From NCBI GenBank assembly GCA_025358295.1, contig JANYJY010000035.1:1-64000 (forward strand): a DNA stretch of 64,000 nt, written 5' to 3'. Position numbers and translations under genes: made by a program. The notes beneath the pieces are model-generated. The model was not told the origin of the DNA. It ran no database searches and saw nothing but the letters and a program-made list of their open reading frames with translations. The stretch comes from Gammaproteobacteria bacterium. GTDB taxonomy: Bacteria > Pseudomonadota > Gammaproteobacteria > Steroidobacterales > Steroidobacteraceae. Shown here piece by piece: positions 23,077-54,272 of the stretch (its first letter is position 1; every line of letters starts with the position of its first letter).

Positions 23077-23077
23077 C

Positions 23078-23938: not shown

Positions 23939-23959
23939 TGTGCGTGAACGACGCTGGAG

Positions 23960-36121: not shown

Positions 36122-37318
36122 ATGACATCAAAACACCTCGCAACCTGGATATGGCAAAGAGCCGACTGGCCCCGATTTACGTGGGACTCGGCGGTTCTGG
36201 CTGCTCCGTTGGCAGCTGCCCGTCGCGCCCAGGGAGAGGTTGCCGGCATGGCCAAACTGCTCGATCCTCGCTTGGATCTGCACGCCCAGCTCGAAATTCT
36301 TGCTGCCGAGGGCGTAGCCACAAGTGCTATCGAAGGAGAAAAATTCGATCCATCGACCCTGCGCAGCTCCTTGGCGCGAAGATTGGGGCTTCCTACGGCG
36401 GGTCTTGCGGTGCCGCCCAGATCAGTCGAGGGACTGGTGGACGTGTTGCTGGACGCAACCAGTCGCTACGATGAACCTCTCACGTTGAAGCGACTGTGCT
36501 CGTGGCAGGCTGCCCTGTTTCCCACGGGTCGTTCCGGCCTGCATGAAATCCGCGTTGGAGAATTGCGTGGGCCGGACCCCATGCAAATTGTTTCAGGACC
36601 GCTGGGGCACGAAAAAATCCACTACGAGGCACCGCCTCGCAAAAGGCTAGCTCGCGACTTGGATCGACTGCTCGCTTGGTTCAATGCACCACCCGCGGGT
36701 CTGGACGGGCTGCTGCGTGCCGGCTTAGCGCATGCATGGTTCGAACTCATTCATCCCTTCGAGGATGGCAATGGACGAGTGGGACGCGCCCTCTTGGACC
36801 GGGCCCTTGCTCAAGATGAACTGAGAGCCGTTCGGTTGTACAGCATGTCCGCGCGCATCATGATCGTTCGAGACGACTACTATCAGGCGCTTGGCGAAAT
36901 CTCGCGCGGCGATCTCGATGTGACACAGTGGCTGCGATGGTTTCTAGAGCAAGTCAGCGTCGCGGCACGCAGCAGCGAGCAAACGATCCGGCACGTGCTG
37001 AATAAGGCACGATTCTGGATTCAGCACGCCCAGCAACCTTTGAATGATCGCCAGCGCAAAGCGCTCAATGCCATGCTCGACGCCGGACCGACGGGTTACA
37101 TTGGCGGCATGACCAATCGAAAATACGCGAATTTGACGAAATCCAGCGCACCCACCGCGCAACGCGATCTGTCCGAGTTGGTTGCCTTGGAATGCTTGGT
37201 GACGGCTGGCGCCGGGCGTAGCGTGCACTATGACCTGCCCTTGTCTGCGACCGGAAGCTCGACCACTACCCCAAGGCCGAGCGCAGCGCTGCAATCTCCG
37301 CGCCTGCCTCGATCATGA
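36122..37318 (+). CDS. Fic family protein (DUF4172-type N-terminus, C-terminal wHTH)
   Basis: HPFEDGNGRVGR catalytic motif; ATSAIEGE inhibitory-helix motif; N-terminal WIWQRADWPRFTWD; C-terminal RKYANLTKSSAPTAQRDLSELVALECL wHTH-like. Confidence 0.93.
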   Translation: MTSKHLATWIWQRADWPRFTWDSAVLAAPLAAARRAQGEVAGMAKLLDPRLDLHAQLEILAAEGVATSAIEGEKFDPSTLRSSLARRLGLPTAGLAVPPRSVEGLVDVLLDATSRYDEPLTLKRLCSWQAALFPTGRSGLHEIRVGELRGPDPMQIVSGPLGHEKIHYEAPPRKRLARDLDRLLAWFNAPPAGLDGLLRAGLAHAWFELIHPFEDGNGRVGRALLDRALAQDELRAVRLYSMSARIMIVRDDYYQALGEISRGDLDVTQWLRWFLEQVSVAARSSEQTIRHVLNKARFWIQHAQQPLNDRQRKALNAMLDAGPTGYIGGMTNRKYANLTKSSAPTAQRDLSELVALECLVTAGAGRSVHYDLPLSATGSSTTTPRPSAALQSPRLPRS

Positions 37319-37349
37319 GACGCTTGAAGGATTGCACGTCTATCCACCG

Positions 37350-37915
37350 CTACTCCACGAATCGTGGCGCGTAGTTCTTCCATTTGCCTGTCCGTCGATT
37401 GAATGCCCGGAATGACCCGTCGGAGTTCGCTTCCAGTTTTATCCAATGAGCAGTGCTTTCGTCGAGGTTGGCCACGTACTTCGCTGCGAAATTGCTGTCG
37501 CCCGCAACGGCGGACACATGCAGCTGCCATACGTCCTCGAGGCCTGGCGCGTGATGCAGTCCTTGATAGGTCTCGAGTGCACCGCCCTTTTTTATCCCGT
37601 TGGTCATGACAGCCACACGCGGCTTGAATGCGGCGAATGTCGCCGGATCAGCGACGTCCGGCCCGCCATGATGGGCGACCAGGTACACATCGACCGATCC
37701 GATCAAGTCTTTCGGACACGCGAGATCGAATAGCGGCTGACCACTCAGATCGCCGACGTCCAGAAAGCGAAATCTCCCATAGCTAATCACGACTCCGGTG
37801 GAGCGCGGGTTCTCGTACAAACCATGGATCGCATTGTTTTTCGACGAGTGACTGTGGTCATGGGGGTCGGCCTTGAATAAACTGGATGCTGGTAAGCTTA
37901 CATCCTCGGCGTAAA
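37350..37915 (-). pseudogene. C-terminal fragment of a metallo-beta-lactamase-fold hydrolase
   Basis: NAIHGLYENPRSTGVVISYGRFRFLDVGDLSGQPLFDLACPKDLIGSVDVYLVAHHGGPDVAD...AYWIK-like end. The N-terminal HxHxDH-bearing half is absent and similarity stops near 37900. Confidence 0.7.
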
Positions 37916-37936
37916 AGCTTTTCAGCGAGGGGACAC

Positions 37937-38860
37937 ATGCGGCTCCATCCAACCGGAAAGTTCGATAACCATGCGACGACGTACAGGCACATTGAGGTAA
38001 AACCCCTGTCTGCAGCCATGGGAGCGGAAATATGCGGCGCGCATGCATCCCACGTCAGTGATGCACAATTCGAGGAGATCGCGCACGCGCTGTTCCGTCA
38101 CAAGGTGATTTATCTGCGCGCTCAGACGCTCACGCACCACGATCAGGAAGCCTTCAGCCTGCGCTTCGGCCCCTTCGCGGAGGACGCCTATACCCAGGGC
38201 GTCCTCGGACACCGCAACGTGCATCCGCTCATCAAGGCAGCCGCCGATTCGTCCGAGATGGTGTTCGGCGAAGGCTGGCACACGGACTCGCCCTTCCTGC
38301 CCGAGCCGCCAGCGATCACGATTCTGCGGTCAGTTGAAGTTCCGCCGTTAGGCGGCGACACGACCTGGGCGAACTCGGCGCTGGCCTATGCCATGTTGAG
38401 CGACGCCTATCGCGGCATGATCGAGGGCCTCAAGGTCCACTTCTCCCTGCGCGATGTCCTCAAGTCGACGCAGGAAGCCGTCGAGGTAAGCGACAGCCCC
38501 ATCGGCCGGCTGGCCGCAACGCGCGATTCGGCTCAGCTTTCAGAGGATCTCGCGCGCAAGATCAAGGGCCACTCGCACCCAATCGTACGCACGCATCCGG
38601 TAACGGGCGAGAGGGCGCTGTATGTGGACCCCTCCTATGGCATCGGCATCGATGGCATGTTGCCCGAGGAGTCCGCGCCCAGCCTGCGTTTCCTGACCGA
38701 GCACCTCACACAACCTGCCTTCGGCTGCCGGCTGCGCTGGGAGCCTGCCATGCTCGTGATCTGGGATAACCGACTCTGCGTTCACCAGGCTTACAACGAC
38801 TACCAGGGCTACCGTCGCGAGTTGTACCGCACAACCGTGCGCGGCGAGAAGCCGGTCTGA
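37937..38860 (+). CDS. TauD/TfdA family Fe(II)/2-oxoglutarate dioxygenase
   Basis: IEVKPLSAAMGAEICGAHASHVSDAQFEEIAHALFRHKVIYLRAQTLTHHDQEAFSLRFG; WHTDSPFLPEPPAITIL; NRLCVHQAYNDYQGYRRELYRTTVRGEKP. Confidence 0.93.
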   Translation: MRLHPTGKFDNHATTYRHIEVKPLSAAMGAEICGAHASHVSDAQFEEIAHALFRHKVIYLRAQTLTHHDQEAFSLRFGPFAEDAYTQGVLGHRNVHPLIKAAADSSEMVFGEGWHTDSPFLPEPPAITILRSVEVPPLGGDTTWANSALAYAMLSDAYRGMIEGLKVHFSLRDVLKSTQEAVEVSDSPIGRLAATRDSAQLSEDLARKIKGHSHPIVRTHPVTGERALYVDPSYGIGIDGMLPEESAPSLRFLTEHLTQPAFGCRLRWEPAMLVIWDNRLCVHQAYNDYQGYRRELYRTTVRGEKPV

Positions 38861-38899
38861 GCCAGTCAGTTACGCCTGGATTCAACCATTCGGGATTCG

Positions 38900-39778
38900 T
38901 CACCCGACCAAGATTGCTCGTGCGGTAAGGAACAACCCGGCGCCGAAGACGATGGCTCCGACGACTCGGTCTGCGCGCATACGGGCCGGTGTAAGACGTT
39001 CACCACTGACGGCAACCGTCACGACAGCCATCGCGCGCAGATCCATGAGCCCGATGACGAAAAGTGTCGCAGTCAGGCCTGCACAGCAGTAAACGCAGTG
39101 AAGACCCAGGCGCAGTCCGTACTGCCACGGCGCACCTGTCTCCGCCAACATGTCGGTAACGCCCTCGGCCGCGCCCCGGCAGCAAGTAAGGTGACGCGCC
39201 TTCCAAGCCGTGAATTGCAGCAAACCGGCGCCCACGACCACTACGCCGACGACGATCGGCACGCTACGCGCCACCGCCGGCAGCTGCATTTCGAGCGCCA
39301 CCAGTGCGACGCCCAGCGGGAATACAGCAATACCAAATACGGTCCACACCCAGAAGTACCCGATCGCCACCACCGCGGATAGCCGACCGAGCCGCGTCTC
39401 GCCCGTCCGGGCGGCGGACCGACGGTGGCGCCACAGCAATGGCACCAATGACGGCAACATCATGGTTACCATCATCATTACCCACATGCAGAGGAACGAG
39501 GCCGCTACGCCAGGCCACGTCTGCCCGGGCATCCGCATCCACGCCATCGATAAGGTCCAGCCGCCGGGCATCGGCAACCCTTGCGTCGCGGACATGGACG
39601 CGCACTCGATAACTGTCGCCGCCCCGGCGGCGGCGAAGATCAGAACTGAAATTCCCAGGAAAGCCCGCTGATCACGATCGTGGAACGGGCGCTGGTGGTA
39701 GGATGTGCTCACGTGAGTCGACGCTAGTCGCCGGCATTCTGTGTTGTTGACAGGGCGTTCGCCACTACCTTTGCCCAC
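38900..39778 (-). CDS. DUF2182-type integral membrane protein
   Basis: Multiple TM helices; FLCMWVMMMVTMMLPSLVPLLWRHRR; cysteine-rich HLTCCRGAAEG segment. Start uncertain (possibly about 39700). Confidence 0.75.
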   Translation of the reverse strand: MGKGSGERPVNNTECRRLASTHVSTSYHQRPFHDRDQRAFLGISVLIFAAAGAATVIECASMSATQGLPMPGGWTLSMAWMRMPGQTWPGVAASFLCMWVMMMVTMMLPSLVPLLWRHRRSAARTGETRLGRLSAVVAIGYFWVWTVFGIAVFPLGVALVALEMQLPAVARSVPIVVGVVVVGAGLLQFTAWKARHLTCCRGAAEGVTDMLAETGAPWQYGLRLGLHCVYCCAGLTATLFVIGLMDLRAMAVVTVAVSGERLTPARMRADRVVGAIVFGAGLFLTARAILVG

Positions 39779-40512
39779 TTCGCGTCGGCCGTCGAAGAGG
39801 CAGCGTATTCATCGTGCCAATTCCACCACTTGTACGGCGGGGTTTGGGGGTAGCCCTTCGGCGAGTCCTCCCAGGTCTCCTGGCGCCCGAGCGGAGTCAC
39901 ATCGAGGTAGCTCCAAGTACTCCCCATCGCCTCGTCACCGCGGCTGTTGATGAAGTAGGTCCGGAACACGCTGTCGCCGTCGCGGAAGAACACATTCGTG
40001 CCGTGCCACTGATCCACGCCGAAGTCGATGTCAAAGCCGTCCGTCACCGTGTACCAAGGCATCTGCCAACCCATCCGCGCCTTCAGGCGCACGATATCGT
40101 TCTGCGGCGCGCGCGAAGCGAATACCAGGGTGGTGTCGCGGGTATTCAGATGAGCTACGTGGGCGACCTGGTCGGCCACCAAGGAACAGCCGCGACAGGC
40201 ATGTTGGGGCCAGCCGTACACACCGGGCTCGAAGAAAGCGCGGTAGACAACCAGTTGACGGCGGCCGCCGAACAAATCGAGCAGGCTCGCCTTGCCCTCG
40301 GGCCCATCAAACTCGTACGCCTCGTTTACGGCGAGCCAGGGCATCCGCCGGCGTTCCGCGGCCAGCGCATCGCGGGCGCGGGTCAGGGCTTTCTCCTTGA
40401 CTAGCAGCAGCTCGCGCGCCGCCTGCCATTCCTTCGGCGACACGATCGGCGGCGCATTCATTGGGAGCCGTACGCTCTTCGGGTCATTCTTAGCTGTTGT
40501 GGTCATGGTCAT
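39724..40512 (-). CDS. DUF899 family thioredoxin-like protein
   Basis: MPWLAVNEAYEFDGPEGKASLLDLFGGRRQLVVYRAFFEPGVYGWPQHACRGCSLVADQVAHVAHLNTRDTTLVFASRAP. Confidence 0.9.
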   Translation of the reverse strand: MTMTTTAKNDPKSVRLPMNAPPIVSPKEWQAARELLLVKEKALTRARDALAAERRRMPWLAVNEAYEFDGPEGKASLLDLFGGRRQLVVYRAFFEPGVYGWPQHACRGCSLVADQVAHVAHLNTRDTTLVFASRAPQNDIVRLKARMGWQMPWYTVTDGFDIDFGVDQWHGTNVFFRDGDSVFRTYFINSRGDEAMGSTWSYLDVTPLGRQETWEDSPKGYPQTPPYKWWNWHDEYAASSTADAKWAKVVANALSTTQNAGD

Positions 40513-40597
40513 TGCAACCTCGTCTTGTTCATTACTCGTGAGATAGTTATAGCCCCAGGCATCGAAGCGCGGGAGTTACAAGTGTGACGGGATTGCG

Positions 40598-41818
40598 ATG
40601 GACTCATTGATAACGGCCGCCGCACGCGCACTCGCGGCGGGTGATCCGCTCGGCGCATTGAAGCGGGTCGCCCTGCGCGACGACGCACCCGCTCTCGCGC
40701 TTCGAGGCATCGCGATGGCGCAGCTCGGCGATTTCATTCGCGCGAAGGCGCTCCTGCGACGTGCCAGGCACGCCTTTAGCCCCAAGGAAGCCGTGGCTCG
40801 CGCGCGGTGCGTCGTTGCCGAGGCCGAGATCGCACTCGTCTCGCGCGACTTGGGGTGGGCTGCGAAGTCGCTCGACGCGGCGCGTGTGACGCTCGACGCG
40901 CATGGCGACCGGGTGAACGCCGCACATGCGCGATATCTCGAACTCAGGCGGTTCCTCCTGATCGGACGTCTCGAGGAGGTCGAGCGTGCGCTCTCCGAAA
41001 TCGATCCCGCGCGATTACCGCCCGCGTCGCAAACCATCCACGAGCTGGTACTCGCGGGGATCTCAATGCGCCGCCTGCGGACGAAGCAAGCGCGCGCGGC
41101 GCTCGCTCGAGCCGCGGACACCGCACGCCGCTCGGCAATCCCCGCTCTGACCGCGGAGGTCGACAACGCAGGCCGGATTCTGAACACGCCCGCGGCGCGC
41201 CTGATTTCGCGCGGCAGCGAGCGGCTCGTCTTGCTTGAAGAAGTCGAAGCACTGCTGGCGTCGAAGGCATTCGTGGTGGACGCTTGCCGCCACGTCGTGC
41301 GTCAGGAGCGCCGGCTGATATCACTCGCCAAGCGTCCGGTATTGTTCGCGCTCGCACGCTCGCTAGGCGAAGCCTGGCCGGGAGACGTGCCGAGGGACGC
41401 GCTCGTCGCGCGCGCATTCCGATTGAAACTCACTGATGGATCGCATCGCGCCCGATTGCGAGTGGAAATGGCCCGCCTTCGCGCGGTGCTGCGGACGCTG
41501 GCCGACGTGAACGCGACCAAACGAGGCTTCATACTTTCCCCCCGCATCGCACACGAAGTTGTCGTACTGGCGCGACCGGTCGAAGAGAAACACGCGGCGG
41601 TGCTCGCTTTTCTCGCCGACGGTGAATCGTGGTCAAGCTCGGCCCTGGCTATTGCGTCGGGGGCTAGTCAGCGTACCGTTCAGCGGGCGCTCGACTCACT
41701 CGCGGCGGCAGGCAAGGTACAGTCATTCGGGCGCGGGCGGACGCGCCGTTGGATGACTCCCCCAATGCCCGGAATCGCGACAACCTTGTTGCTCTCCGTG
41801 TCTCTTCCGATTGACTAA
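40598..41818 (+). CDS. Helical-repeat protein with C-terminal HTH, probable regulator
   Basis: Alanine/leucine-rich helical pairs; C-terminal SSSALAIASGASQRTVQRALDSLAAAGKVQSFGRGRTRRWMTPP wHTH. Confidence 0.65.
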   Translation: MDSLITAAARALAAGDPLGALKRVALRDDAPALALRGIAMAQLGDFIRAKALLRRARHAFSPKEAVARARCVVAEAEIALVSRDLGWAAKSLDAARVTLDAHGDRVNAAHARYLELRRFLLIGRLEEVERALSEIDPARLPPASQTIHELVLAGISMRRLRTKQARAALARAADTARRSAIPALTAEVDNAGRILNTPAARLISRGSERLVLLEEVEALLASKAFVVDACRHVVRQERRLISLAKRPVLFALARSLGEAWPGDVPRDALVARAFRLKLTDGSHRARLRVEMARLRAVLRTLADVNATKRGFILSPRIAHEVVVLARPVEEKHAAVLAFLADGESWSSSALAIASGASQRTVQRALDSLAAAGKVQSFGRGRTRRWMTPPMPGIATTLLLSVSLPID

Positions 41819-41827
41819 GATGGACAC

Positions 41828-42487
41828 ATGAACCGCAAAACCGCTGAAATTGTTCGAGAGTTTAGCCCTTTCTCGGGTGCCGACCGGGTGCATGGAGTCA
41901 CGTATGACGGTCAAAAGGTGTGGTTTGCCACGGGGGACAAGCTGAACGCCTTCGATCCCACCAGCGGTGAAGTGTTGCGCTCGATCGATGTCGCCGCACA
42001 TGCTGGGACGGCCTTCGACGGTGAGCACCTGTTTCAGCTCGCCGAGAATCGCATCCAGAAGATCGATCCGCACAGCGGCCGTGTGCTCGCCACGATCCCG
42101 GCGCCGGGAGGCGGCGGGGACTCGGGTCTTACCTGGGCAGAAGGGACGCTGTGGGTGGGCCAGTACCGGGACCGGAAGATTCATCAAATCGATCCTGACA
42201 CGGGGGCGATTCTTCGCACGATCGAGTCCAATCGTTTCGTCACCGGAGTGACATGGGCCGATGGAGATCTCTGGCACGGGGCCTGGGAAGGTGACGAGGG
42301 CGAGCTGCGGCGAATCGATCCGCGAACGGGAGAGGTTCTGGAGAGTCTCGGGATGCCGCCCGGAGTCTTCGTTTCGGGGCTCGAGTCGGATGGCGGCGAT
42401 CAGTTCTTCTGCGGAGGAGGAAGCAGCGGGAAAGTGAGGGCTGTTCGCCGGCCTAAGCGAGGGATCGATCCGGTGAAGGCGACATAG
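41828..42487 (+). CDS. Vgb/glutamine-cyclotransferase-like beta-propeller protein
   Basis: Repeated blades (GVTYDGQKVWFATGDKLNAFDPTSGEVLRSIDV; IDPHSGRVLATI; WVGQYRDRKIHQIDPDTGAILRTI; IDPRTGEVLESL). Confidence 0.75.
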   Translation: MNRKTAEIVREFSPFSGADRVHGVTYDGQKVWFATGDKLNAFDPTSGEVLRSIDVAAHAGTAFDGEHLFQLAENRIQKIDPHSGRVLATIPAPGGGGDSGLTWAEGTLWVGQYRDRKIHQIDPDTGAILRTIESNRFVTGVTWADGDLWHGAWEGDEGELRRIDPRTGEVLESLGMPPGVFVSGLESDGGDQFFCGGGSSGKVRAVRRPKRGIDPVKAT

Positions 42488-42551
42488 CGAGGCATCGCGT
42501 TGACAATAGCGAAAGCCCGACGGCGCCCGGTGAGGGACCATGCTAGATGTT

Positions 42552-42785
42552 TCAATAGGTCTCTATTAGCCCGATCAATTGCCCCTGCCGAACGGGACTC
42601 TCAGCTGCAATGAGAATGGTCAGCCGTCCGGCTCCGGGCGAGGTGACTTCCATGCTGGCTTTTTCATACATGACTTCCGCAAGAACGGCGCCTACGGATA
42701 CCAATTCCCCACTTTGGAATAGCCAGGTCGCGATAACCGCGTCGCCGTCGTCACCCCATAAGTCCGCGGGAATGATTACATCCAT
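42552..42785 (-). CDS. Stand-alone lipoyl-domain protein
   Basis: MDVIIPADLWGDDGDAVIATWLFQSGELVSVGAVLAEVMYEKASMEVTSPGAGRLTILIAAESPVRQGQLIGLIETY. Lipoyl-type EKASMEV; ATGA overlap with E1 beta; no E2 catalytic domain. Confidence 0.85.
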   Translation of the reverse strand: MDVIIPADLWGDDGDAVIATWLFQSGELVSVGAVLAEVMYEKASMEVTSPGAGRLTILIAAESPVRQGQLIGLIETY

Positions 42786-43822
42786 CAAACGGCCCCGCCG
42801 CGGCATAGCTGCCTAGAGAGTTCCACGATCTTGGCGGCACTCGGCAACAACGGATGTTCGAGTGCGGGTGAATACGGAATCGGCACGTCCGGATGGGTAA
42901 TGCGTGCCGGCGCGGCCAGCCAATCGACACCGCTTTCGCAGGCCCCGGCGATGACCTCGGCACTCACACCGAAACTGCGGTAGTCGTCATCCACGACGAT
43001 GAGCCGGCGGGACTTGGCCACCGATACCGCAACGGCCCCATGATCCAAAGGCGCAATAGTGCGTAAATCGATTACCTCAGCCTCGATGCCCTCTGCCGCC
43101 AAGGTTGTAGCCGCCTGCAGCGCCAGATGTACCGTGAGACCCAAACCCACGAGCGTAATGTCGCGACCGGGTCGTACCGTCGCTGCCTTGCCGATCGGCA
43201 CTTCATACATTTCCTGAGGTACGTGAACGATGGAGCCGGGTACCGTGCCGAGCCACCCCATGCCCTGCAAGGCCTTATGAAACATGAAAACCACGGGATT
43301 CGCATCCGCGATGGCGCTCAGCATCAGGCCCTTGGCATCGTAAGCGTTCGAGGGCATCACTACTTTCAAGCCAGGCAGATGCGCAAAGGTTGCGTACAAG
43401 CACTGGGAATGCTGCCCGGCATCGCCATAGCCGCCGCCCACCGAAGTCATGAGCACCAAAGGGCAGCACACATGGCCACCGGAGAAATAGCTCTGCTTGG
43501 CTGCCAGGTTGTAAATCGCATCCATGCACACGCCGAAGAAATCCACGAACATGAGTTCAACGACCGGACGCATACCCGCCGCGGCGAGGCCTACCGCGGC
43601 GCCGATGAAGGCCGTCTCGGAAATCGGCGTATCGCGAACGCGCCCGGCGCCGAAGCGTTCGAGCAGGCCTTGCGTCGTGCCAAAGACGCCGCCCAGCGCG
43701 CCGATGTCCTCGCCGAGCACGATGACCTTCGGATCGGCGTCCATGGACTGGCCGATCGCCTCGCTCATGGCCTTCGCAATTGTCAGCCGGCGCGCGGTCG
43801 CAGCGGTGGTGGTGGCGGTCAT
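42785..43822 (-). CDS. 2-oxoacid/acetoin dehydrogenase E1 beta subunit
   Basis: GEDIGALGGVFGTTQGLLERFGAGRVRDTPISETAFIGAAVGLAAAGMRPVVELMFVDFFGVCMDAIYNLAAKQSYFSGG. Confidence 0.93.
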   Translation of the reverse strand: MTATTTAATARRLTIAKAMSEAIGQSMDADPKVIVLGEDIGALGGVFGTTQGLLERFGAGRVRDTPISETAFIGAAVGLAAAGMRPVVELMFVDFFGVCMDAIYNLAAKQSYFSGGHVCCPLVLMTSVGGGYGDAGQHSQCLYATFAHLPGLKVVMPSNAYDAKGLMLSAIADANPVVFMFHKALQGMGWLGTVPGSIVHVPQEMYEVPIGKAATVRPGRDITLVGLGLTVHLALQAATTLAAEGIEAEVIDLRTIAPLDHGAVAVSVAKSRRLIVVDDDYRSFGVSAEVIAGACESGVDWLAAPARITHPDVPIPYSPALEHPLLPSAAKIVELSRQLCRGGAV

Positions 43823-43840
43823 ACTGCCTCTCTATGAATT

Positions 43841-44824
43841 TCAGCTGAAGACGGTGTCGAACGCCGACTCGGCGGCGGGATAGTCGGACTTGCGCGCGAA
43901 TTGCAATGCGTCTGTGACGGCGCGCAGCTCGCGGCCTTCAATCGACTCGAGTTCCGCCGTCGAAACTCCGGCAGCGGCGAGCCGTTGGCGGTACACGATG
44001 AGGGGATCGCGCGTTTGCAGCGCGGCGACTTCCCCGCTGGGCCGATAACCTTCGGCATCGCCCATAAAATGTCCTTCCAATCGCCAGGTCTCGATCTCGA
44101 TCAGTGTGGGCCCGCCCCCGGCGCGCGCACGTTGAATTGCTTCGCCAGCCGCCGCGTAGATAGCATCGATGTCATTGTCCGCCACGAAGCTGCCCGGCAT
44201 TCCATAGGACGCGGCGCGATCCGAGTTTCTCTCGATGGCGGTTGAGGCGCGCTTCGCCACCGAAATGCCCCAGGCATTATCCTCAATGACGAATACCACC
44301 GGCACCTTCCAAACCGCAGCGAGATTCAAGGATTCATGAAACGCCCCTTGGTTGGCGGCGCCTTCGCCGATAAAACTCACGGCGACCGCATCGCTGCCGC
44401 CCAGTTTGGCGGCCAATGCCGCGCCGACGGCCGGCCCCATGCCTTGCGCCACGATCCCTGAGCAGCAGAAATTGACGCCCGCATCGAACAGATGCATGTG
44501 CCCGCCGCGGCCGCCAGAGAGTCCGTCGCGCTTGCCGAAAATCTCCGCTGCCATGGCATTGAGCGCGACTCCCTTGGCAATGGCGATGTGATGCGCACGA
44601 TGTGTCGCTGTCACAGTGTCGTCGGGTCGCAAGTGCGCGCACACGCCGACCGCGCAGGGTTCCTGACCACTCGATAAATGCATTTCGCCGGGAATCGGGC
44701 CCTTGGCCATGTTGAACAGGGGCTGTTTGCCCTCGAGATACGCCACTTTGATGGCCTCCTCGAAGTAACGGCTCCTCGCCATCTGCGCATACATCCGAAT
44801 TCGCACGTCACATTCCGCTGGCAC
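43841..44824 (-). CDS. 2-oxoacid/acetoin dehydrogenase E1 alpha subunit (TPP-binding)
   Basis: GGRGGHMHLFD; VAVSFIGEGAANQGAFHESLNLAAVWKVPVVFVIEDNAWGIS (TPP motif); EGHFMGDAEGYR. Confidence 0.93.
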   Translation of the reverse strand: MPAECDVRIRMYAQMARSRYFEEAIKVAYLEGKQPLFNMAKGPIPGEMHLSSGQEPCAVGVCAHLRPDDTVTATHRAHHIAIAKGVALNAMAAEIFGKRDGLSGGRGGHMHLFDAGVNFCCSGIVAQGMGPAVGAALAAKLGGSDAVAVSFIGEGAANQGAFHESLNLAAVWKVPVVFVIEDNAWGISVAKRASTAIERNSDRAASYGMPGSFVADNDIDAIYAAAGEAIQRARAGGGPTLIEIETWRLEGHFMGDAEGYRPSGEVAALQTRDPLIVYRQRLAAAGVSTAELESIEGRELRAVTDALQFARKSDYPAAESAFDTVFS

Positions 44825-46730
44825 GGGTCACCTCTGTTTGGCTGTAGCCCACCGCACGCAGCGCCTCGCAAACCCCGTCAAGCGCTTGGGGATCTTCGAT
44901 GCTGGCGGGAGTTTCGAAAGACTCGCCGTCGGCGATCCGGCGAATGACGGAGCGCAATATCTTGCCCGAACGCGTCTTTGGTAACCTGTCGACGACAACG
45001 ATCGCCCTACAGGCCGAGATAGCACCGATCTCATCGCGAATCTTTCGCGCCACTTCGACGATGATCTCGGCCTGGGCTCGAGTTACACCAGCCTTCAGGA
45101 CCAACAGCCCCACCGGCACCATGCCCTTGATGGCATCGGCGGCGCCGATGACCGCACATTCGGCTACATCGGGATGTTCGGCAATGACTTGTTCGATGCC
45201 GCCGCTAGACAGGCGATGACCCGCAACGTTGATGATGTCGTCGATACGGCTCATGACGTGCACGAAGCCGTCGGCATCGATGAATCCTGAATCACCCGTG
45301 CGATAGAATCCTGGATGCGCGGCGAGATAGCTCGCGACGAACTCGACTTCATTGTTCCACAGGGTGGATAGGCACCCCGGCGGCAACGGCAATCGAATGC
45401 AAATGTCGCCGATGATGCGCGGTGACTGCGGCTCGCTCTGAGCGTTCAATACAGCAAAACGATAGCCGGGCACCGCATGGCCCGCGCTGCCGTAGCGCAC
45501 CGCTCGCTCTCCCAACCCCAAACAGGTGGCCAGCGCCGGCCACCCCAATTCAGTCTGCCACCAGTTATCGATCACGGGTACCTGGCAGTGTTTTTCCGCC
45601 CAGCGAACGGTGTCAGGATCAGCGCGCTCTCCGGCCAGGAACACAGCGCGCAAGCGCCCCGTGCCGGGTTTGAGTTGCAACCCCTCTGGGTCTTCGCGCT
45701 TGATGGCACGCAGCGCAGCGGGCGAGGTTAACAGCACCTGCACCCCATGCGCGCGAATCACGCGCCAATAAGCGCCGGCATCCGGGGTGCCCACCGGCTT
45801 GCCTTCGTAAAGAATAGTGGTGCAGCCGGCAATGAGGGGCGCATACACGATATAGCTGTGTCCCACCACCCAGCCAATATCGGACGCTGCCCAGAAGACC
45901 TCGCCCGGCTGCATGCCAAATACATGGCGCAGGCTCCACGCCATCGCCACCGCATGACCGCCGTTATCACGCACCACGCCCTTCGCTATCCCCGTGGTGC
46001 CGGAGGTATACAAAATGTACAGGGGATCGCTCGCCCTCATCGGCACACAAGCAGCCGGCGCGGCGGCGGCTGTCGCCTCGCACCAATCAAGATCACGTGG
46101 ACGACGCAGCTCAGCACGAAGCTCGCGCCTCTGCAGGATCACGACACTCTCCACCGGGTGCGCCGCCAGTTCGAGCGCTGCATCCAGCAGGGGCTTGTAT
46201 GCCACGATGCCCTTGGGCTCGATACCGCACGACGCGCTCAAGACCACGCGCGGCTTAGCGTCATCGATGCGCTTGGCAAGCTCAGGCGCCGCAAATCCGC
46301 CGAATACCACGCAATGTACGGCGCCGATGCGCGCGCAGGCCAGCATGGCGATCACCGCCTCAGGGATCATCGGCAGATAGATAACCACTCGATCGCCGGG
46401 CTGCACCTGCAAATCACGCAGCGCGCCGGCCAATTGCGCAACATCGTGTTGCAATTCCTGATAGCTGACGCATCTTTCCGTACCGGCGAGCGGGCTGTCG
46501 TAGATCAATGCCGCTTGAGCGCCGCGCCCTGCGTCGACGTGCCGGTCGACTGCGTTGAAGCAGGTGTTGAGAGTCGCACCCGGAAACCACTCCGCGAGGC
46601 CGTAAGCCTTGCCCTCAAAGGGCTCCTCAGGCGCGTGATACCAACTGACGGCACACGCCGCTTCCGACCACAAGCGTGCCGGATTCTCGACGCTGGCTTG
46701 ATAGGCACTGGCGAAGGCGGTCATGGGCAA
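44808..46730 (-). CDS. Acyl-CoA synthetase, PrpE (propionate-CoA ligase)-like
   Basis: YILYTSGTTGIAKGVVRDNGGH; WAASDIGWVVGHSYIVYAPLI; WWQTELGWP; YRTGDSGFIDADGFVHVMSRIDDIINVAGHRLSSG; PKTRSGKILR. Confidence 0.92.
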   Translation of the reverse strand: MPMTAFASAYQASVENPARLWSEAACAVSWYHAPEEPFEGKAYGLAEWFPGATLNTCFNAVDRHVDAGRGAQAALIYDSPLAGTERCVSYQELQHDVAQLAGALRDLQVQPGDRVVIYLPMIPEAVIAMLACARIGAVHCVVFGGFAAPELAKRIDDAKPRVVLSASCGIEPKGIVAYKPLLDAALELAAHPVESVVILQRRELRAELRRPRDLDWCEATAAAAPAACVPMRASDPLYILYTSGTTGIAKGVVRDNGGHAVAMAWSLRHVFGMQPGEVFWAASDIGWVVGHSYIVYAPLIAGCTTILYEGKPVGTPDAGAYWRVIRAHGVQVLLTSPAALRAIKREDPEGLQLKPGTGRLRAVFLAGERADPDTVRWAEKHCQVPVIDNWWQTELGWPALATCLGLGERAVRYGSAGHAVPGYRFAVLNAQSEPQSPRIIGDICIRLPLPPGCLSTLWNNEVEFVASYLAAHPGFYRTGDSGFIDADGFVHVMSRIDDIINVAGHRLSSGGIEQVIAEHPDVAECAVIGAADAIKGMVPVGLLVLKAGVTRAQAEIIVEVARKIRDEIGAISACRAIVVVDRLPKTRSGKILRSVIRRIADGESFETPASIEDPQALDGVCEALRAVGYSQTEVTRASGM

Positions 46731-46733
46731 AAG

Positions 46734-47138
46734 TCAGGCCGCGCTCGTCAACTTGTTCACCAACTCATAATCGAGCACCGAGGCGATGCTGTCGTCCTCA
46801 TTTAAGAACAGCACGGGCCCGAAATTGGTGAATAGCAATTCGGTGTATTCCGGAAAACTGGTCATGTCGTGCACGGCGCCGATCGGCTCATAGCCGTACA
46901 CCCCAGCAAGCGCGGTGCCCATGCGATAGTCCATGCGACCCCTGAGCACGAAATACTCGCCTGCGCCGAGATGCTTGTGACGCGGAATGAAACTGCCCGC
47001 CTGGCAGCGGAACAATACTGTCCAGCGCCCAGTCTCCGGACTGGTGAACAAGCGCTTGAGATCGATGCCCGGAACTACGGGGGCCCAGTTAAGATCCGCG
47101 CCGTCGCACATTACTTCAGGCATATTGAGGTCAGTCAT
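46734..47138 (-). CDS. Cupin dioxygenase-like (acetylacetone-cleaving enzyme Dke1 / 2,4'-dihydroxyacetophenone dioxygenase family)
   Basis: SPETGRWTVLFRCQAGSFIPRHKHLGAGEYFVLRGRMDYRM...YGYEPIGAVHDM...FGPVLFLNEDDSIASVLDYE; three candidate metal-binding His (HKH...VH). Confidence 0.8.
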   Translation of the reverse strand: MTDLNMPEVMCDGADLNWAPVVPGIDLKRLFTSPETGRWTVLFRCQAGSFIPRHKHLGAGEYFVLRGRMDYRMGTALAGVYGYEPIGAVHDMTSFPEYTELLFTNFGPVLFLNEDDSIASVLDYELVNKLTSAA

Positions 47139-47166: not shown

Positions 47167-47949
47167 TCACGCGCTCGCCGGGATGCCGGTGGTGAAGCCA
47201 CCGTCGACGATGTAGCCGGCGCCGGTGACGTAACTGGCCTCATCGCTGCTCAAGAAGGCGATGACTTGCGCGATTTCATGCGGCTCGGCATAGCGGCGTA
47301 GCGGCACGAAAGAGCTGAAATGCGCGTGGGCTGCCTCAAGGCTGGGTGCGCCTACCTGCTCTTCGACCTTTTGCATCATGGCGGTGTTCACCAATCCGGG
47401 ATGCACGGAATTCACCCGAATGCCGTGCCGCGCAAGATCGATGGCAGCGGTTTTGGCGAGGCCCATCACGGCGTGCTTGCTGGCGGCATAGGCGGCAAAG
47501 GTCCCGAAGCCACGAATGCCGTTGATCGAGGAGACGAGGACGATGGAGCCGGAACCGGCAGCCCTCATTAGCGGGGTCACGGCTTGAATGCCATGCCACG
47601 GCCCATGTACGTTGACCCGCATCACCTCATCGAATACCTCAATCGGGTAATCCTTCAAGGGTGAGGACACCCCGGCAATGCCGGCGTTGAATATCGCTGC
47701 GTCGAGTCGGCCGAAGCGTGCCTCAATCGCGCGCACCGCCTCCGCCATCGCCTCAGGATTCGCGGCATCGCCGACAATCTGTACGACGTCTCGATTCGCC
47801 GTGCCGGCCACACTGTGAGTAAGCGCCGCCGCGTCACGGTCCATGGCCGCCACCACGTAGCCCGCTTCGAGCATGCGCTTCACCACGGCTTTGCCGATTC
47901 CATTGGCCGCGCCGGTCACCAAGGCTGCGCGCCGCGCTCCACTGCTCAT
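47167..47949 (-). CDS. SDR family oxidoreductase
   Basis: AALVTGAANGIGKAVV; SSINGIRGFGTFAAYAASKHAV; VTGAGYIVDGGFTTG. Confidence 0.93.
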   Translation of the reverse strand: MSSGARRAALVTGAANGIGKAVVKRMLEAGYVVAAMDRDAAALTHSVAGTANRDVVQIVGDAANPEAMAEAVRAIEARFGRLDAAIFNAGIAGVSSPLKDYPIEVFDEVMRVNVHGPWHGIQAVTPLMRAAGSGSIVLVSSINGIRGFGTFAAYAASKHAVMGLAKTAAIDLARHGIRVNSVHPGLVNTAMMQKVEEQVGAPSLEAAHAHFSSFVPLRRYAEPHEIAQVIAFLSSDEASYVTGAGYIVDGGFTTGIPASA

Positions 47950-48728
47950 GTGGCAAACCCGCCGTCGACGGTGTACACGCCGCCGGTGCAAAAGGACGCG
48001 TCGTCGCTCAATAGAAAACAGACGACCTTCGCGATCTCCTGCGGCTGTGCGTAGCGACGCAATGGCGTTCGATTCACGGCTGCGTCGTGCGCGGCCCCTG
48101 GATTAGCGGGGTTTAAGTTGCGCTCCAGATCCCTCGTCATGCGCGTCGATACAAAGCCTGGTGCGACGACGTTCACGCGCACACCGAAGGGCGCCAATTC
48201 CAGTGCAACCGAACGCATCATACCGATCACCGCATGCTTGCTTGCGGTGTAGGCCGACACCCCTGCGAATCCCATCACCCCAGAAATAGACGAGACGATG
48301 ACTGCGTTGCCACGCCTCTTTTCCAACTCCGGTATGCAGGCTTGCAGGCCGCACCACACCCCGCGCACATTGACCTTCATCACCTCGGCGAATATCTCGC
48401 TCGGGTACTCGTCTACCGGCGCCACTGCGCCCTCGATGCCGGCATTCAGCACGATAGAATCCACCGCGCCGAAGGACGCCGAGCCGGCCGCCACGGCACC
48501 GCGCATGTCCGAAAGATCCGTGACATCCGCGCGCACCGTGCACAGCGCCCCACCCCGAGCGGTACGCAATTTCAGTGCCGCAAGCGCCTCTGCGTCGCGA
48601 TCGACGGCGACCACACTGGTGCCGCGTGACAGCAAGCGCTCAACGATGGCCGAGCCGATTCCGCCGGCCGCCCCGGTCACCAAGGCCACCTGCGGCTGCC
48701 GCGCGCTGCCGGCTTCAGTAGCGGACAT
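47946..48728 (-). CDS. SDR family oxidoreductase
   Basis: VALVTGAAGGIGSAIVERLL; SSISGVMGFAGVSAYTASKHAVIG; CTGGVYTVDGGFAT. Confidence 0.93.
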   Translation of the reverse strand: MSATEAGSARQPQVALVTGAAGGIGSAIVERLLSRGTSVVAVDRDAEALAALKLRTARGGALCTVRADVTDLSDMRGAVAAGSASFGAVDSIVLNAGIEGAVAPVDEYPSEIFAEVMKVNVRGVWCGLQACIPELEKRRGNAVIVSSISGVMGFAGVSAYTASKHAVIGMMRSVALELAPFGVRVNVVAPGFVSTRMTRDLERNLNPANPGAAHDAAVNRTPLRRYAQPQEIAKVVCFLLSDDASFCTGGVYTVDGGFAT

Positions 48729-50961
48729 TGAACTCGACGCCAAAAGTGCGCGGCGGCGCCAGGCTGCCGACCACCGTGGAGCCAATGATGTCGCCATTGA
48801 AAATCTTGTTTGTGGCGACGACTTCGTTGGTCGCATTGTCGACGTAGGCCGCTACATTCCACTTACCCGAGGGTCCGGTATAGGTGCCGCGAGCCTTGAG
48901 CCAGCCGTAACTGCGTTCGGCGAGATCCGGCACATTGAACGCCGAGAAGTAAATCTTGTCCTGCCAGGCGTAATCCACACGCAGTGTGATGTCGCTGTGA
49001 TCGCGCAAATCGAATTGGTACTGCGCCCCAACAGTGGCTTTCAACGCGGGCGCCCGCGGCAATTTCTTACCGCTCAATTGCTGTACGCCGAGCGCCGGGT
49101 ACTTAGGATCCAGCAAAGCGCCATCGGTAAATTCGGCATCCAGCCAAGTCAAATTGGCGTCAACGCGAAAAGCCGACGTGGCGAGCCACGAGGATTCGAG
49201 CTCAACGCCCTTGACCTTGGCCTTGGCAGCGTTGCGAATGATGACGTTGTTGTTCTGGACGTCCTGTACTTGTAGATCCGTGTAGTCGTAGTAGAACACC
49301 GCCGTGTTCAACCGCAGCCGACGATCGAACAGCGTCAGCTTGGCTCCCGCCTCGTAGTCCCAAATCTGCTCGGGCTTGTAGGGATCATTCTGATAGCTGC
49401 CCGGATTGAAGCCACCGGACTTGAATCCCTTCGATGCCGATGCATAGAGAAAGGTGTTCGAGTTCAGTTCATAGTTCACGCCCAACTTTGGGGTAAACGA
49501 GTTGAATCGCGTGTCCGCGAATGTCGCCACGTTGTCGAAGGCCGTGATCGGTGCGTTGACGAAAACGACATCATTGCTGCCGCCGCGCCGCTCACTGCTG
49601 TAGCGGCCGCTCAGCACGGCCTGCAGCTTGTCGGTGAAGTAGAGCGTGCCCTCGCCAAAGCCGGCGTAGGCTTGAGTGGTGGTCTTGCCGTTGAGCTTCA
49701 AGAGGCAACAAATGGGATTATTTGGCAGGCCGAACAGCGCATCGGTAAAGGGCAGAAAGTATTCATTGCGAATCGGGTTCGCTTCGTCGAAGTAGTACGC
49801 ACCAAGGATCCATTGAAAGAATCCGCTGTTCGGTGAACTGAGCTGAAACTCCTGCGAGTATTGATGCTGGTCCTCCTCGCGCAATTGGTCCACGCCGAAC
49901 ACGGGCGACACATCGAGATCGTCGCGGTTGTAGGGGCGGGTTTTCCGGTAGGCGCTCAAGGAACTCAAGGTGTAGTCGCCGATATTCCACACCAATTTTC
50001 CGGAAATGCCTTCACTGTAGGGCTTATTGAAACCTTGGATGTCCGAGCCGTAGCTGCGGGCATAGGGCGCGGAACGAACCGAGGGTGGCACCAGGGCTTG
50101 GTAGATCGGATTGGTGGATGTCCCGGGTCCAAAGTAATGCCACACGACGCCATCATCGTTCGCTTCGTAGTAGTCCACCTTGATGGTGGCGTTCAACGTG
50201 TCGAGAATTTTCGCCGTCAACGTGATGCGTGCCATCCAGGCGTTCTGGTCCTCGGCATCGCTTTTGACAGAGCCCAAGCCCACCGGGTCCGCGATCGGGC
50301 GATACAGCGTGGTGTAGCCTGAGTGCGAATCGTGTTCCACGGCGATGCGCAACCCGATGCGATCGCTCAACGGCCCGCCGATGGCGCCCGTCACCCGATA
50401 GGCATCGTAGTTCCCGACATCGAGCCGGCCCTCGGCCTCAAGCTCGTTGCTCGGTCCTTTGGAAATTACATTCACCGACCCGCCGGTGGCATTGCGGCCG
50501 TACAAAGTACCCTGCGGACCGCGCAGCACCTCTACACGCTCCACGTCGAGGAACGCCGGCACCGCACCGGCACTTCGAGATATGTAAACGCCATCCGAAT
50601 GAAATGCGGTCGAACTGTCCGAGCCGCCGATCACCGAGGAGTAGCCGATGCCTCGGATATAGATTTGCGCCTCGCCTTGAAACAGGCTGACCAGCAGGCT
50701 GGCATTCGCGTTGGCCATGTCGCTGATGCCGACGATGGTTCGCTCTGTCAGGTCCTCGCTGGAATACGCGGTCACCGCAGCCGCCGTTTTTTGTACATCC
50801 GTGGTACGGCGCTCCGCGGTGACCAGGATGGTCTCGAGGCCCGTCGAGGCATCCTCGGTAACCGCCTGAGCCCGGGTTTTCGACGCGCCACCCAATAAGC
50901 CCATAGCCAATAGGCAGCAAAACACGTTCACGCCAGCCTTAAACATAGTCATTCCCCGCAA
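48715..50961 (-). CDS. TonB-dependent receptor
   Basis: Signal peptide; ETILVTAERRTTDVQKTAAAVTAYSSEDL; VEVLRGPQGTLYGRNATGGSVNVISKGP; C-terminal PPRTFGVEFNVRY. Confidence 0.95.
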   Translation of the reverse strand: MRGMTMFKAGVNVFCCLLAMGLLGGASKTRAQAVTEDASTGLETILVTAERRTTDVQKTAAAVTAYSSEDLTERTIVGISDMANANASLLVSLFQGEAQIYIRGIGYSSVIGGSDSSTAFHSDGVYISRSAGAVPAFLDVERVEVLRGPQGTLYGRNATGGSVNVISKGPSNELEAEGRLDVGNYDAYRVTGAIGGPLSDRIGLRIAVEHDSHSGYTTLYRPIADPVGLGSVKSDAEDQNAWMARITLTAKILDTLNATIKVDYYEANDDGVVWHYFGPGTSTNPIYQALVPPSVRSAPYARSYGSDIQGFNKPYSEGISGKLVWNIGDYTLSSLSAYRKTRPYNRDDLDVSPVFGVDQLREEDQHQYSQEFQLSSPNSGFFQWILGAYYFDEANPIRNEYFLPFTDALFGLPNNPICCLLKLNGKTTTQAYAGFGEGTLYFTDKLQAVLSGRYSSERRGGSNDVVFVNAPITAFDNVATFADTRFNSFTPKLGVNYELNSNTFLYASASKGFKSGGFNPGSYQNDPYKPEQIWDYEAGAKLTLFDRRLRLNTAVFYYDYTDLQVQDVQNNNVIIRNAAKAKVKGVELESSWLATSAFRVDANLTWLDAEFTDGALLDPKYPALGVQQLSGKKLPRAPALKATVGAQYQFDLRDHSDITLRVDYAWQDKIYFSAFNVPDLAERSYGWLKARGTYTGPSGKWNVAAYVDNATNEVVATNKIFNGDIIGSTVVGSLAPPRTFGVEFNVRY

Positions 50962-51128: not shown

Positions 51129-52121
51129 ATGCTTGAATATCCGCGCTCTGGCGAACTAAGGGCACCTATAAAGGCTTGGTCCGCGGGGCAATTTCCTGCA
51201 AGCCAGCGCTACGATGCGTGGGCGAGTGCGCTCAGCCAATACTTCCTGCCGTGGTCGATCACCTCGCGCAGCCAGCAAACCTGCGAGGCGGCGGTCCGTC
51301 AATACGACTTCGGCGGCTGCAAACTCATCCACTGCAATAGCGACCCATTGAGCGGCATTCGAACGATCGGCGACATCGGCCGCACCGACGGCCACTTCTT
51401 CAACGTGTTGTACGTGGTCTCCGGTGTTGAATACCTGCGTTTCCACGATCGCGACGTCACGCTGCGCGCCGGTGAATATGTGTTGTGGGACTCGCAGCGG
51501 CGGATCGAATTTACGCTGTTGGAGCCGCTCGAAAAGCTGACCTTCATGGTCCCCGCTTCTCTCATGCGCTCACTCATGCCCAACGCCGAGGACTACGTGG
51601 GAGTAGCCCTTTCTTGCAATCAAGGAATCGGCGGATTGTTCGCCAATCACCTACGGGCATTGGGTCACGCGCTGTGGAATATGCACGAGCATGACGCCGC
51701 GCAGATCGTGAACCCCACGCTCGACCTACTGGCACGAGCGTTGACCTCGGCACCCTGCCGCAAGCGGCCGAATATGCGTCACGCAACGTTGCGCCGTCTG
51801 CGCGAGTATATAGTTGAGAATCTAGCGGACCCGAATCTCACGCCCACTCGAATCGCAGCCGCCAATCACGTTTCGGTGCGTTACCTGCACATGCTGTTCG
51901 GCGAAATTAACAGCACAGTATCGGACTGGATTCGAGCGCAGCGCCTGGAGCGCTGCCGCTCCGATCTATCTAACGTGCAACTCGATCATCAGACCATCAC
52001 CGAGATTGCATACAAGTGGGGATTCGCGGATTCCGGTAACTTCGGCAAGGTATTCCGCAAGGCATACGGTCAAGCGCCGCGCGCTTATCGTCAGACGCGC
52101 AGGCAACGAGCGCCTGCCTGA
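51129..52121 (+). CDS. AraC-family transcriptional regulator
   Basis: AraC-binding-like N-terminus (RAGEYVLWDSQRRIEFTLLEPLEKLTFMVPASL); C-terminal HTH ADPNLTPTRIAAANHVSVRYLHMLFGE...TITEIAYKWGFADSGNFGKVFRKAYGQAPRAYRQ. Confidence 0.94.
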   Translation: MLEYPRSGELRAPIKAWSAGQFPASQRYDAWASALSQYFLPWSITSRSQQTCEAAVRQYDFGGCKLIHCNSDPLSGIRTIGDIGRTDGHFFNVLYVVSGVEYLRFHDRDVTLRAGEYVLWDSQRRIEFTLLEPLEKLTFMVPASLMRSLMPNAEDYVGVALSCNQGIGGLFANHLRALGHALWNMHEHDAAQIVNPTLDLLARALTSAPCRKRPNMRHATLRRLREYIVENLADPNLTPTRIAAANHVSVRYLHMLFGEINSTVSDWIRAQRLERCRSDLSNVQLDHQTITEIAYKWGFADSGNFGKVFRKAYGQAPRAYRQTRRQRAPA

Positions 52122-52439: not shown

Positions 52440-53570
52440 TCAGTTCAGGCCGAGGAGCCTTGAGACTAGTTGCGTGCGGCTGTTGATACCGACCTTCGCG
52501 TACACGGAGCGCAGATGATTTTCGACCGTACGCAGCGCGATCCCCAAGCCGCGGGAAATCTGTCCATTACTCTGCCCGGCGCATATCAGGCGGGCGACGT
52601 CGATCTCGCGGTCGGAAAGAGCGAATGACGCGCAGGCATCGTCGAGAACCTTGCGGTCACTGCATTCGGACATGACGAGAACATAGTAAATTCTCGCGTC
52701 GATGTCGCGAAAGGCGCGCACGTCGATGTCCATTTGACAAGAATTTCCGTGGTTCTCCCGCGGCATTGCGACGGTGAACCGGCCGCGAGAGCCCGCCGCC
52801 GGCGCAAGATACATCAGCCGCTGACGTATTTCGCCAAATACGCTCGCCGACTGCGCGCTGCGGCACGCAGCTTCCTCGTATAGCCCGAGCTGCGTCAGGC
52901 CGTGACGATTCGCATGCCGGACGAGCAGGTCCTCGTCGAGTACAACGAAACCCATGCCGGCGTCACTATCTGCGACGGCATCCAGTACGGCACCCGACAA
53001 AGGAACCGAGTCCCGATACGCAAGGTTCGAGATGACCGATTGAATCACCGGCACCAATTCTTGTAGCCTGCCCACCTCCTCGGTCGAGAACGGCTGCGCT
53101 TCGTGGGCGCGATGAAACCCCAAGCACATCATCTCCGATCCAAGGGTCGAGCGGACGGGAAAGACAACGCCGAGGACATGCCGGATATCGTACTCAAAAA
53201 GAAACTCACGGTAGTAAGCCTGATCCCGCCAACCCGGAATTCCCGACAGCAGTGACACGGAGGCACGCTGACCGTTCGCTCCGGAGCGCAACCGTTGCAG
53301 ACCGGGCTTGAGGACTGGATCCAGGTTGTAGACGCCTTCCGCGTACACTTCGACGCTACGCGGATGATGCCCGACGTACGATCGCCTCCCCACCAGCTGT
53401 CCATTGGTGGGCAGATCAAAGAACTGCAGGAACACACTACTGGTCGCATTCAACGCGTCTGCTACCGGCGTCAGCAGGCGCTCACCCATCTGCTCGTATG
53501 ATGTGCACGAAAGCACGCGCACGAATAATTCGGCGGACACCGCGCTCCGCGACGCCGAAATTTCGGACAT
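52440..53570 (-). CDS. LuxR-type HTH regulator with PAS/GAF-like N-terminus
   Basis: C-terminal LSDREIDVARLICAGQSNGQISRGLGIALRTVENHLRSVYAKVGINSRTQLVSRLLGLN. Frame opens upstream to 53618; start uncertain. Confidence 0.88.
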   Translation of the reverse strand: MSEISASRSAVSAELFVRVLSCTSYEQMGERLLTPVADALNATSSVFLQFFDLPTNGQLVGRRSYVGHHPRSVEVYAEGVYNLDPVLKPGLQRLRSGANGQRASVSLLSGIPGWRDQAYYREFLFEYDIRHVLGVVFPVRSTLGSEMMCLGFHRAHEAQPFSTEEVGRLQELVPVIQSVISNLAYRDSVPLSGAVLDAVADSDAGMGFVVLDEDLLVRHANRHGLTQLGLYEEAACRSAQSASVFGEIRQRLMYLAPAAGSRGRFTVAMPRENHGNSCQMDIDVRAFRDIDARIYYVLVMSECSDRKVLDDACASFALSDREIDVARLICAGQSNGQISRGLGIALRTVENHLRSVYAKVGINSRTQLVSRLLGLN

Positions 53571-53714
53571 GATTGTGATGTCCCCTCCGAGCCAGCCTAT
53601 AACCCCGTCAGCGCCCACCGACCCGCGTTTCTTCGTTTTTCTTCAACGGCGGCACTGTGCCTTTGGTCAATATGCAACAGTTCGGGGCCCTTCGCAATCC
53701 GAACCGGCGATGCC

Positions 53715-54272
53715 TCACACGGCGGTGCGTCCTGGCGTGCGGATCGCAGCGGATCCATCCCAGCCCACGCTGGCCTGATGTATTTGGGTGAATAGCCCTT
53801 CCACGGCCGAAGTGACTTCAATGACCTCGATCATGCCCCCTAGCTCCGCGGAGGTGTCGACGTAAGCGGCGCGGGCGCCGATCGACACCATGGCCTCAAG
53901 GCCAAGGGCGAATCCCTGCTGTTGATATCGTGCCAGCACTGCCTCGTAGTGCTCCGGCTGCGCCGCCACCGCCCAGTGGTGAAAACCATAGCCGCGTCTA
54001 TCGAGAATCTCTCGATAGACGCTGGGCTGAGCGTCATTCTGCTGAATCAACTCAAACATCATGTGGCCCGAATTCGCCAGCGCAACCGTCAAATCGAGCT
54101 CACAGGGCAAACCACGGTACTTGATCCATTGAAACTCGAAGTGTTCGAACAGGAACCACGGGCCGAGATTGAGCCGGCTGCCGAAATTCTTCATTGCGGC
54201 CTGTATGTCCTCAACGATGTAGGCGACCTGAATGATCCCGTCGAGCGGCTGTCCCCAATTCCATGTCGGCAT
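53715..54272 (-). CDS. VOC (glyoxalase/bleomycin resistance) family protein
   Basis: GIIQVAYIVEDIQAAMKNFGSRLNLGPWFLFEHFEF; ELIQQNDAQPSVYREILDRRGYGFHHWAVAA; GMIEVIEVT. Confidence 0.88.
   Translation of the reverse strand: MPTWNWGQPLDGIIQVAYIVEDIQAAMKNFGSRLNLGPWFLFEHFEFQWIKYRGLPCELDLTVALANSGHMMFELIQQNDAQPSVYREILDRRGYGFHHWAVAAQPEHYEAVLARYQQQGFALGLEAMVSIGARAAYVDTSAELGGMIEVIEVTSAVEGLFTQIHQASVGWDGSAAIRTPGRTAV

Follow-up and report, generated by a model that had tools for sequence, protein, structure and literature searches.

In the textbook 2-oxoacid and acetoin dehydrogenases, a swinging arm is tethered to a huge E2 core. An E1 cluster of Haloferax volcanii presumably carries a free lipoyl domain. 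The oadhAB clusters of this species encode acetoin-dehydrogenase-like E1s for which no substrate is reported (PMC8305020). Archaeal single-domain lipoyl proteins are recognized as a class (PMC3904984), and in sHdr sulfur oxidation the free lipoyl protein LbpA, which has its own ligase (LplA), works as a shuttle (PMC6067878).

The locus described here lies within a 64,000-nucleotide stretch of DNA (the window) on contig 17 of a 4.0-Mb gammaproteobacterial draft assembly. It shares with AcoAB, PDH, and BCKDH a full E1 (PF00676, PF02779, and PF02780) and an operon-encoded lipoyl domain; in contrast to these systems, its lipoyl domain has its own gene, and the operon is without a peripheral-subunit-binding domain, an E2 catalytic domain, or an E3. 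The carrier stands alone as do the archaeal proteins, which differ in being archaeal, and its partner would be E1, whereas LbpA is GcvH-like and has Hdr-like partners. Split-E2 operons, found in Phenylobacterium (locus L030), on plasmid pR1CP1 of Rhodococcus opacus 1CP, and on plasmids of Sphingomonas paeninsulae and Halobaculum, encode a related E1 with a ∼77-amino-acid lipoyl protein in the same position. Unlike these, the window has neither a separate E2 catalytic domain (E2cat) nor a ligase gene. The bacterial arrangement of E1, free lipoyl domain, separate E2, and ligase was not found in the literature searched, which covered few subscription journals.

The E1 operon and its small lipoyl protein

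Seven intact minus-strand genes, with short gaps or overlaps between them, are transcribed in the order SDR1, SDR2, Cupin_7, PrpE/Acs-like acyl-CoA synthetase, E1 alpha, E1 beta, and lipoyl ORF. Both SDR dehydrogenases matched PF13561 (SDR1, positions 47946 to 48836, E value 1.7e−56; SDR2, 47167 to 47991, 8.9e−59), and the second-best NCBIfam model for SDR1 was meso-2,3-butanediol dehydrogenase, below its cutoff. The cupin (46734 to 47138), a predicted β-diketone-cleaving dioxygenase of the Dke1-like 3-His type, matched PF12973 (7.1e−37) and PDB entry 3bal (1.1e−19). The synthetase (44808 to 46730) matched PF00501, PF13193, PF16177, and PDB entry 5gxd (1.1e−228); it scored 668 bits against the NCBIfam propionate--CoA ligase model, below that model's cutoff of 955, and its ORF overlaps that of E1 alpha by 17 bases. 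The E1 alpha/beta pair proposed in the preliminary description was confirmed by Pfam matches above the cutoffs. E1 alpha (43841 to 44824) matched PF00676 (E1_dh; 1.7e−66) and carries the ThDP motif GEGAANQG...EDN, while E1 beta (42785 to 43822) matched PF02779 (Transket_pyr; 5.9e−42) and PF02780 (Transketolase_C; 2.1e−32). This intact domain set is that of a heterotetrameric E1 of the PDH, BCKDH, or acetoin type; NCBIfam E1 models matched the window E1 below their curated cutoffs.

A TonB-dependent receptor gene (48715 to 50961, minus strand; PF00593 and PF07715), assigned to uptake, lies 5′ of the operon, and an AraC-type regulator gene (51129 to 52121, plus strand; PF12833 and PF14525) is divergent from it. 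The window also contains a second Cupin_7 protein (58650 to 59138). Between this and the operon are genes for a LuxR regulator (52440 to 53618), a glyoxalase-like protein (53715 to 54272), an SDR (54319 to 55104), and a TonB receptor (55298 to 57577), and the whole could possibly form one larger catabolic region. On the other side, the next gene past the lipoyl ORF (41828 to 42487, plus strand) encodes a β-propeller-like protein. A minus-strand ORF at 41723 to 42541 was rejected as an operon member because the opposite plus strand encodes this protein, with Pfam matches. Nearby, on the same strand as the operon, a DUF899 protein gene overlaps that of a PpoB2-family membrane protein (38900 to 40512).

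The lipoyl ORF (42552 to 42806, minus strand) opens at 42806 with 84 codons. An ATG at 42785 gives a protein of 77 amino acids (MDVIIPADLW...) that aligns with the starts in relatives, and this is the likely start. With it, the overlap with the E1 beta stop is a single base (TGATG) rather than the ATGA reported earlier; a 4-base overlap (−3) of the two genes is common among relatives. The description of this ORF as a lipoyl domain alone held: Biotin_lipoyl (PF00364; 1.7e−9, above the cutoff) was the sole Pfam family on the chain, and no peripheral-subunit-binding or catalytic domain was found in the Pfam scan of the ORF. Trp21, Lys42, and Gly53 were invariant in family alignments, and Lys42 of the 77-amino-acid form, within YEKAS, is the predicted lipoylation site. 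Structure prediction, which had been proposed as a check, gave a lipoyl fold. The AlphaFold2 model, built from 36 family members, was all-β (mean pLDDT, 94; pTM, 0.76), with a flattened β-barrel and the lysine at a hairpin. Its top Foldseek matches were E2 lipoyl domains and biotinyl domains, and the family profile, when compared with solved structures, matched E2 lipoyl domains best and biotinyl domains less well.

The barrel fold is common to biotinyl domains, and in LbpA a lipoyl protein likewise occurs on its own and has a ligase dedicated to it (PMC6067878), so the small protein might be a biotin carrier or a sulfur-oxidation LbpA and not a partner of E1. This is very improbable. The gene lies directly 3′ of E1 beta in nearly all relatives, the lysine context is of the EKA/DKV type and not MKM, and hdr-like or carboxylase genes were absent from the neighbors scanned; PF00364, the only Pfam match, does not place the protein with LbpA. 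Ligase-like proteins beside relatives match PF21948 (lipoyl-ligase catalytic domain), and such neighbors, or lipA, are of the lipoyl type and therefore point to lipoate rather than biotin on the carrier.

A lipoyl ORF in the range of ∼75 to 85 amino acids thus directly follows E1 alpha and E1 beta, as in split-E2 operons, but no separate E2cat and lipoate-ligase-like gene lie 3′ of it. Using profile searches in all six frames, no E2 catalytic domain was identified in the window. PF00198, the mark of a canonical E2, was found neither on the lipoyl chain nor elsewhere in the operon, the six PF00198 matches of the genome all fell on other contigs, and no E3 was found on the contig of the window. 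The absence of E2 and E3 noted in the preliminary description therefore stands for the window and its contig. Two findings had been named there as counting against it: an E2 gene just outside the cluster, and a frameshift separating an E2 once fused downstream. No E2 gene was found on the contig or adjoining the cluster. A short-segment profile search of ∼37000 to 42560 for frameshifted or decayed remnants of E2 or ligase 3′ of the lipoyl ORF returned only chance-level scores (E ≥ 0.36). With both searches empty, neither finding was obtained.

Split-E2 arrangements among relatives of E1 beta

When 84,980 genomes were scanned once with the window E1 beta, 80 loci were obtained; these were sorted with three purpose-built profiles, one each for the lipoyl domain, E2cat, and ligase-like protein. 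A separate lipoyl domain together with a separate E2cat of ∼230 amino acids was present at 30 of the 80, usually with the ligase-like gene next; all three occurred at 28 loci, and the ligase-like gene was missing at 2. At a further 14 loci the lipoyl domain and ligase-like protein were found with no E2cat. The lipoyl domain was accompanied by neither E2cat nor ligase at 22 loci, of which 15 were followed by 3 kb of contig or more, 5 were too short to judge, and 2 were from Planococcus. Ordinary fused E2s accounted for 12 loci, and at the remaining 2, one of them on a contig ending there, the lipoyl domain was not detected. The E2cat profile retrieved the E2 of the Rhodococcus, Sphingomonas, and Halobaculum plasmids at 1e−54 or better and is thus sensitive enough. 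The search for split lipoyl/E1 operons in related genomes that had been suggested earlier therefore showed them to be widespread. The anatomy of the lipoyl-only arrangement was described correctly, but the surprise implied there was too great: the arrangement is not unique, and separate lipoyl domains after E1 beta are widespread and annotated in RefSeq, where such genes are named "lipoyl domain-containing protein" and "2-oxo acid dehydrogenase subunit E2."

The active-site His was kept in all 29 aligned E2cat proteins, and the Ser/Thr block was also kept. That these proteins are dead enzymes was considered because the HxxxDG pattern failed in 14 of the 29, and rejected because the alignment placed His in all, with Asp changed to Asn in some. 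The Asn was seen at L013 to L015, L017, L018, L020, L021, L023 to L025, L027 to L029, and L037.

Some individual loci had features of their own. The mobilizable plasmid pR1CP1 of R. opacus 1CP (L181; 5949 to 10033) carries E1 alpha, E1 beta, lipoyl domain, E2, and lipA in that order, a self-contained set with its own lipoyl synthase. In Mycolicibacterium (L081; 6133 to 7818 and 10274 to 11209), a lipA-like radical-SAM gene comes right after the lipoyl domain, with no E2cat, and just 5′ of E1 alpha are two ORFs without annotation (444 and 115 amino acids). A zinc alcohol dehydrogenase gene sits between the E1 subunit genes of Marinobacterium (L010). In two Planococcus loci (L048 and L052), a chain of ∼150 to 160 amino acids directly 3′ of E1 beta comprises a lipoyl domain and a binding-domain-like part and stops before the catalytic domain, unlike the full E2 of Planococcus glaciei (L055).

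A quick-search tree of 85 E1 beta rows placed the window beside L030 and L007 (support, 90); L008 and L012 (86) and L042 (89) joined next, these supports of 86 to 90 being below the starred level. Its nearest row was Phenylobacterium L030, to which the window E1 beta, intact in frame, is 70% identical. A Dke1-like cupin was encoded at all six loci of this sub-branch (the window, L030, L007, L008, L012, and L042) and was not seen at the other loci of the 80-locus survey. AraC homologues were present at L007, L008, L012, L030, and L042, and in L012 a TonB receptor 54% identical to the one encoded 5′ of the window operon adjoins the cupin, E1, and lipoyl genes. Of the six loci, L030, L012, and L042 have E2cat, and the window, L007, and L008 do not. 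Across the 75 tree rows with a judged state, a minimum of 11 changes in E2 presence was counted, and a single origin of the cupin association. Repeated loss of E2cat would be the simplest reading, the change count alone fitting loss, gain, or transfer alike. The best E1 beta match in the other searched genomes of the host's family was just 53% identical, and the operon is therefore probably an acquired accessory.

E2, E3, and lipoylation genes of the host

The rest of the host genome was searched for E2 and E3, as had been proposed, and six PF00198 proteins and two high-scoring E3 genes (contigs 26 and 70) were identified. The sucB product, the PDH E2, and the E2s of contigs 39 and 20 are each encoded beside their own E1 or E3. 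Another PF00198 match runs off the end of contig 6. A further E1 pair is truncated within its E1 beta by the end of contig 24, and it plausibly belongs with the truncated E2. The E2 at 75.3 kb on contig 26 has no directly adjoining E1. Besides the window, E1 alpha/beta pairs stand without a neighboring E2 at three places: 40 and 65 kb on contig 26, and contig 9. The E2-less E1 pairs outnumber the unattached E2s, which favors sharing of E2. Two of these pairs and the E1-less E2 lie within one ∼40-kb region of contig 26 (40 to 79 kb), among SDR-like and other ORFs.

The borrowing of a chromosomal E2 and E3, already raised in the preliminary description, is the best reading. Sub-branch E2cat proteins with their His, the contig-26 E2, and the E2-less E1 pairs all argue for it, and from them we infer the sharing itself. 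That a free lipoyl carrier serves E1 while other complexes supply E2 and E3 is given slightly better than an even chance. A dedicated E2cat, perhaps with a ligase, could instead have escaped assembly or be encoded at another place in the genome: the draft is in 74 contigs, the E2 match on contig 6 is incomplete because the contig ends there, and in the related locus L008 the ligase-like gene is 2.6 kb from E1 beta and not adjacent. This is improbable, given that the genome is 97.5% complete, that the open frame is 400 to 443 codons long for five of the six PF00198 matches, and that the sixth, on contig 6, plausibly partners the E1 pair cut at the end of contig 24.

The pair on contig 9 belongs to a second E1 alpha-E1 beta-lipoyl module (22062 to 24197). 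It has an in-frame TAG near the E1 beta start, and its E1 alpha alignment begins at residue 30; this module may be decaying. If such decay happens in this host, the window operon might likewise be decaying after loss of E2cat and ligase, its carrier a remnant and its E1 and lipoyl domain nonworking. The seven window genes are nevertheless intact and tightly packed, neither the E1 motifs nor the lipoyl lysine has been lost, and the E2-less E1/lipoyl layout is conserved across many actinobacteria, all of which makes a remnant hard to credit.

One LplA/LipB-type protein was identified in the host genome and, with the two E3 genes, could serve the carrier. The window carrier would most likely be lipoylated by the housekeeping LipB/LipA route. 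Its domain is the lowest-scoring PF00364 match in the genome, and recognition by LipB is therefore not assured.

Possible pathway and role of the free carrier

Dke1 converts acetylacetone to acetate and methylglyoxal and also accepts other β-dicarbonyls (PMC7226712). The window cupin is of the same fold family as this enzyme (PDB entry 3bal); in the alignment, an HxH and a third His of the Cupin_7 barrel bring all three metal-binding His into register. From a 3-substituted β-diketone, the cupin would be expected to yield an acid and an α-diketone. Judging from the neighboring genes and family resemblance, the operon may be a module for β-diketones or α-hydroxyketones, with a 2-oxo acid as an alternative substrate. 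Such a module would fit the SDRs, whose resemblance to butanediol/acetoin dehydrogenases is below cutoff, the PrpE-like ligase for short acids, and an E1 family that includes the L010 enzyme with its intervening zinc alcohol dehydrogenase gene. No acetylacetone operon with an E1 was found in the literature searched.

An SDR would make or use the β-diketone, the cupin would split it into an acid and an α-dicarbonyl, and the synthetase would activate the acid released. At the end of this catabolic route, E1 and the carrier could take the α-dicarbonyl or its hydroxyketone: E1 would cleave an acetoin-type α-hydroxyketone or α-diketone, or a 2-oxo acid, and reductively acylate the lipoyl-lysine of the 77-amino-acid protein. 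In relatives, the separate ∼230-amino-acid E2cat would transfer the acyl group to CoA, and the dedicated ligase-like protein would lipoylate the carrier. In the window, the carrier may be de-acylated by an E2 encoded elsewhere, the best candidate being the contig-26 E2 with no adjoining E1, and re-oxidized by the housekeeping E3.

As the main rival reading, the acyl group could leave the carrier as free acid or be handed to an acceptor other than CoA, with the PrpE-like synthetase making the acyl-CoA in place of an E2. Many relatives have no E2cat, and the synthetase is present in the window and L007, both without E2cat; in L012 and L042, both with E2cat, none was seen close to E1. However, L008 is without E2cat and shows no synthetase, L030 ends too near its cupin to bear on the matter, activation of the cupin-released acid explains the synthetase equally well, and neither a hydrolase nor another acceptor gene was found conserved. 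This route is considered unlikely. Marginally less likely is a two-part system of E1 and carrier in which the acyl-lipoyl carrier of this E1 family works without any E2 and the acid is re-activated by the PrpE-like ligase. As a general substitute for E2 the synthetase was rejected, not being near most other E2-less loci; it survives only as a rival explanation.

The preferred reading is a split-E2, acetoin-dehydrogenase-like module that would use a shared E2 and the housekeeping E3. The sequences support the gene identities, the lipoyl fold and its lysine, the separate-E2 relatives, and the lack of a local E2; the substrate, the lipoylation route, the sharing of E2 and E3, and loss as the direction of E2 change are what we infer.

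Stand-alone lipoyl proteins were already known, and the broader split-E2 family is more interesting than its instance in the window. The association with a Dke1-like cupin suggests that β-diketones or related compounds are catabolized by a module of this kind, for which no pathway was described in the literature searched. In this E1 family of bacteria and haloarchaea, the arm has been cut loose, and the acyltransferase is split off and often missing. Its repeated absence could mean that acyl transfer to CoA is not required in every case. The family makes it directly testable whether tethering is needed, whether complexes share an E2 core, and whether E1 can run without E2.
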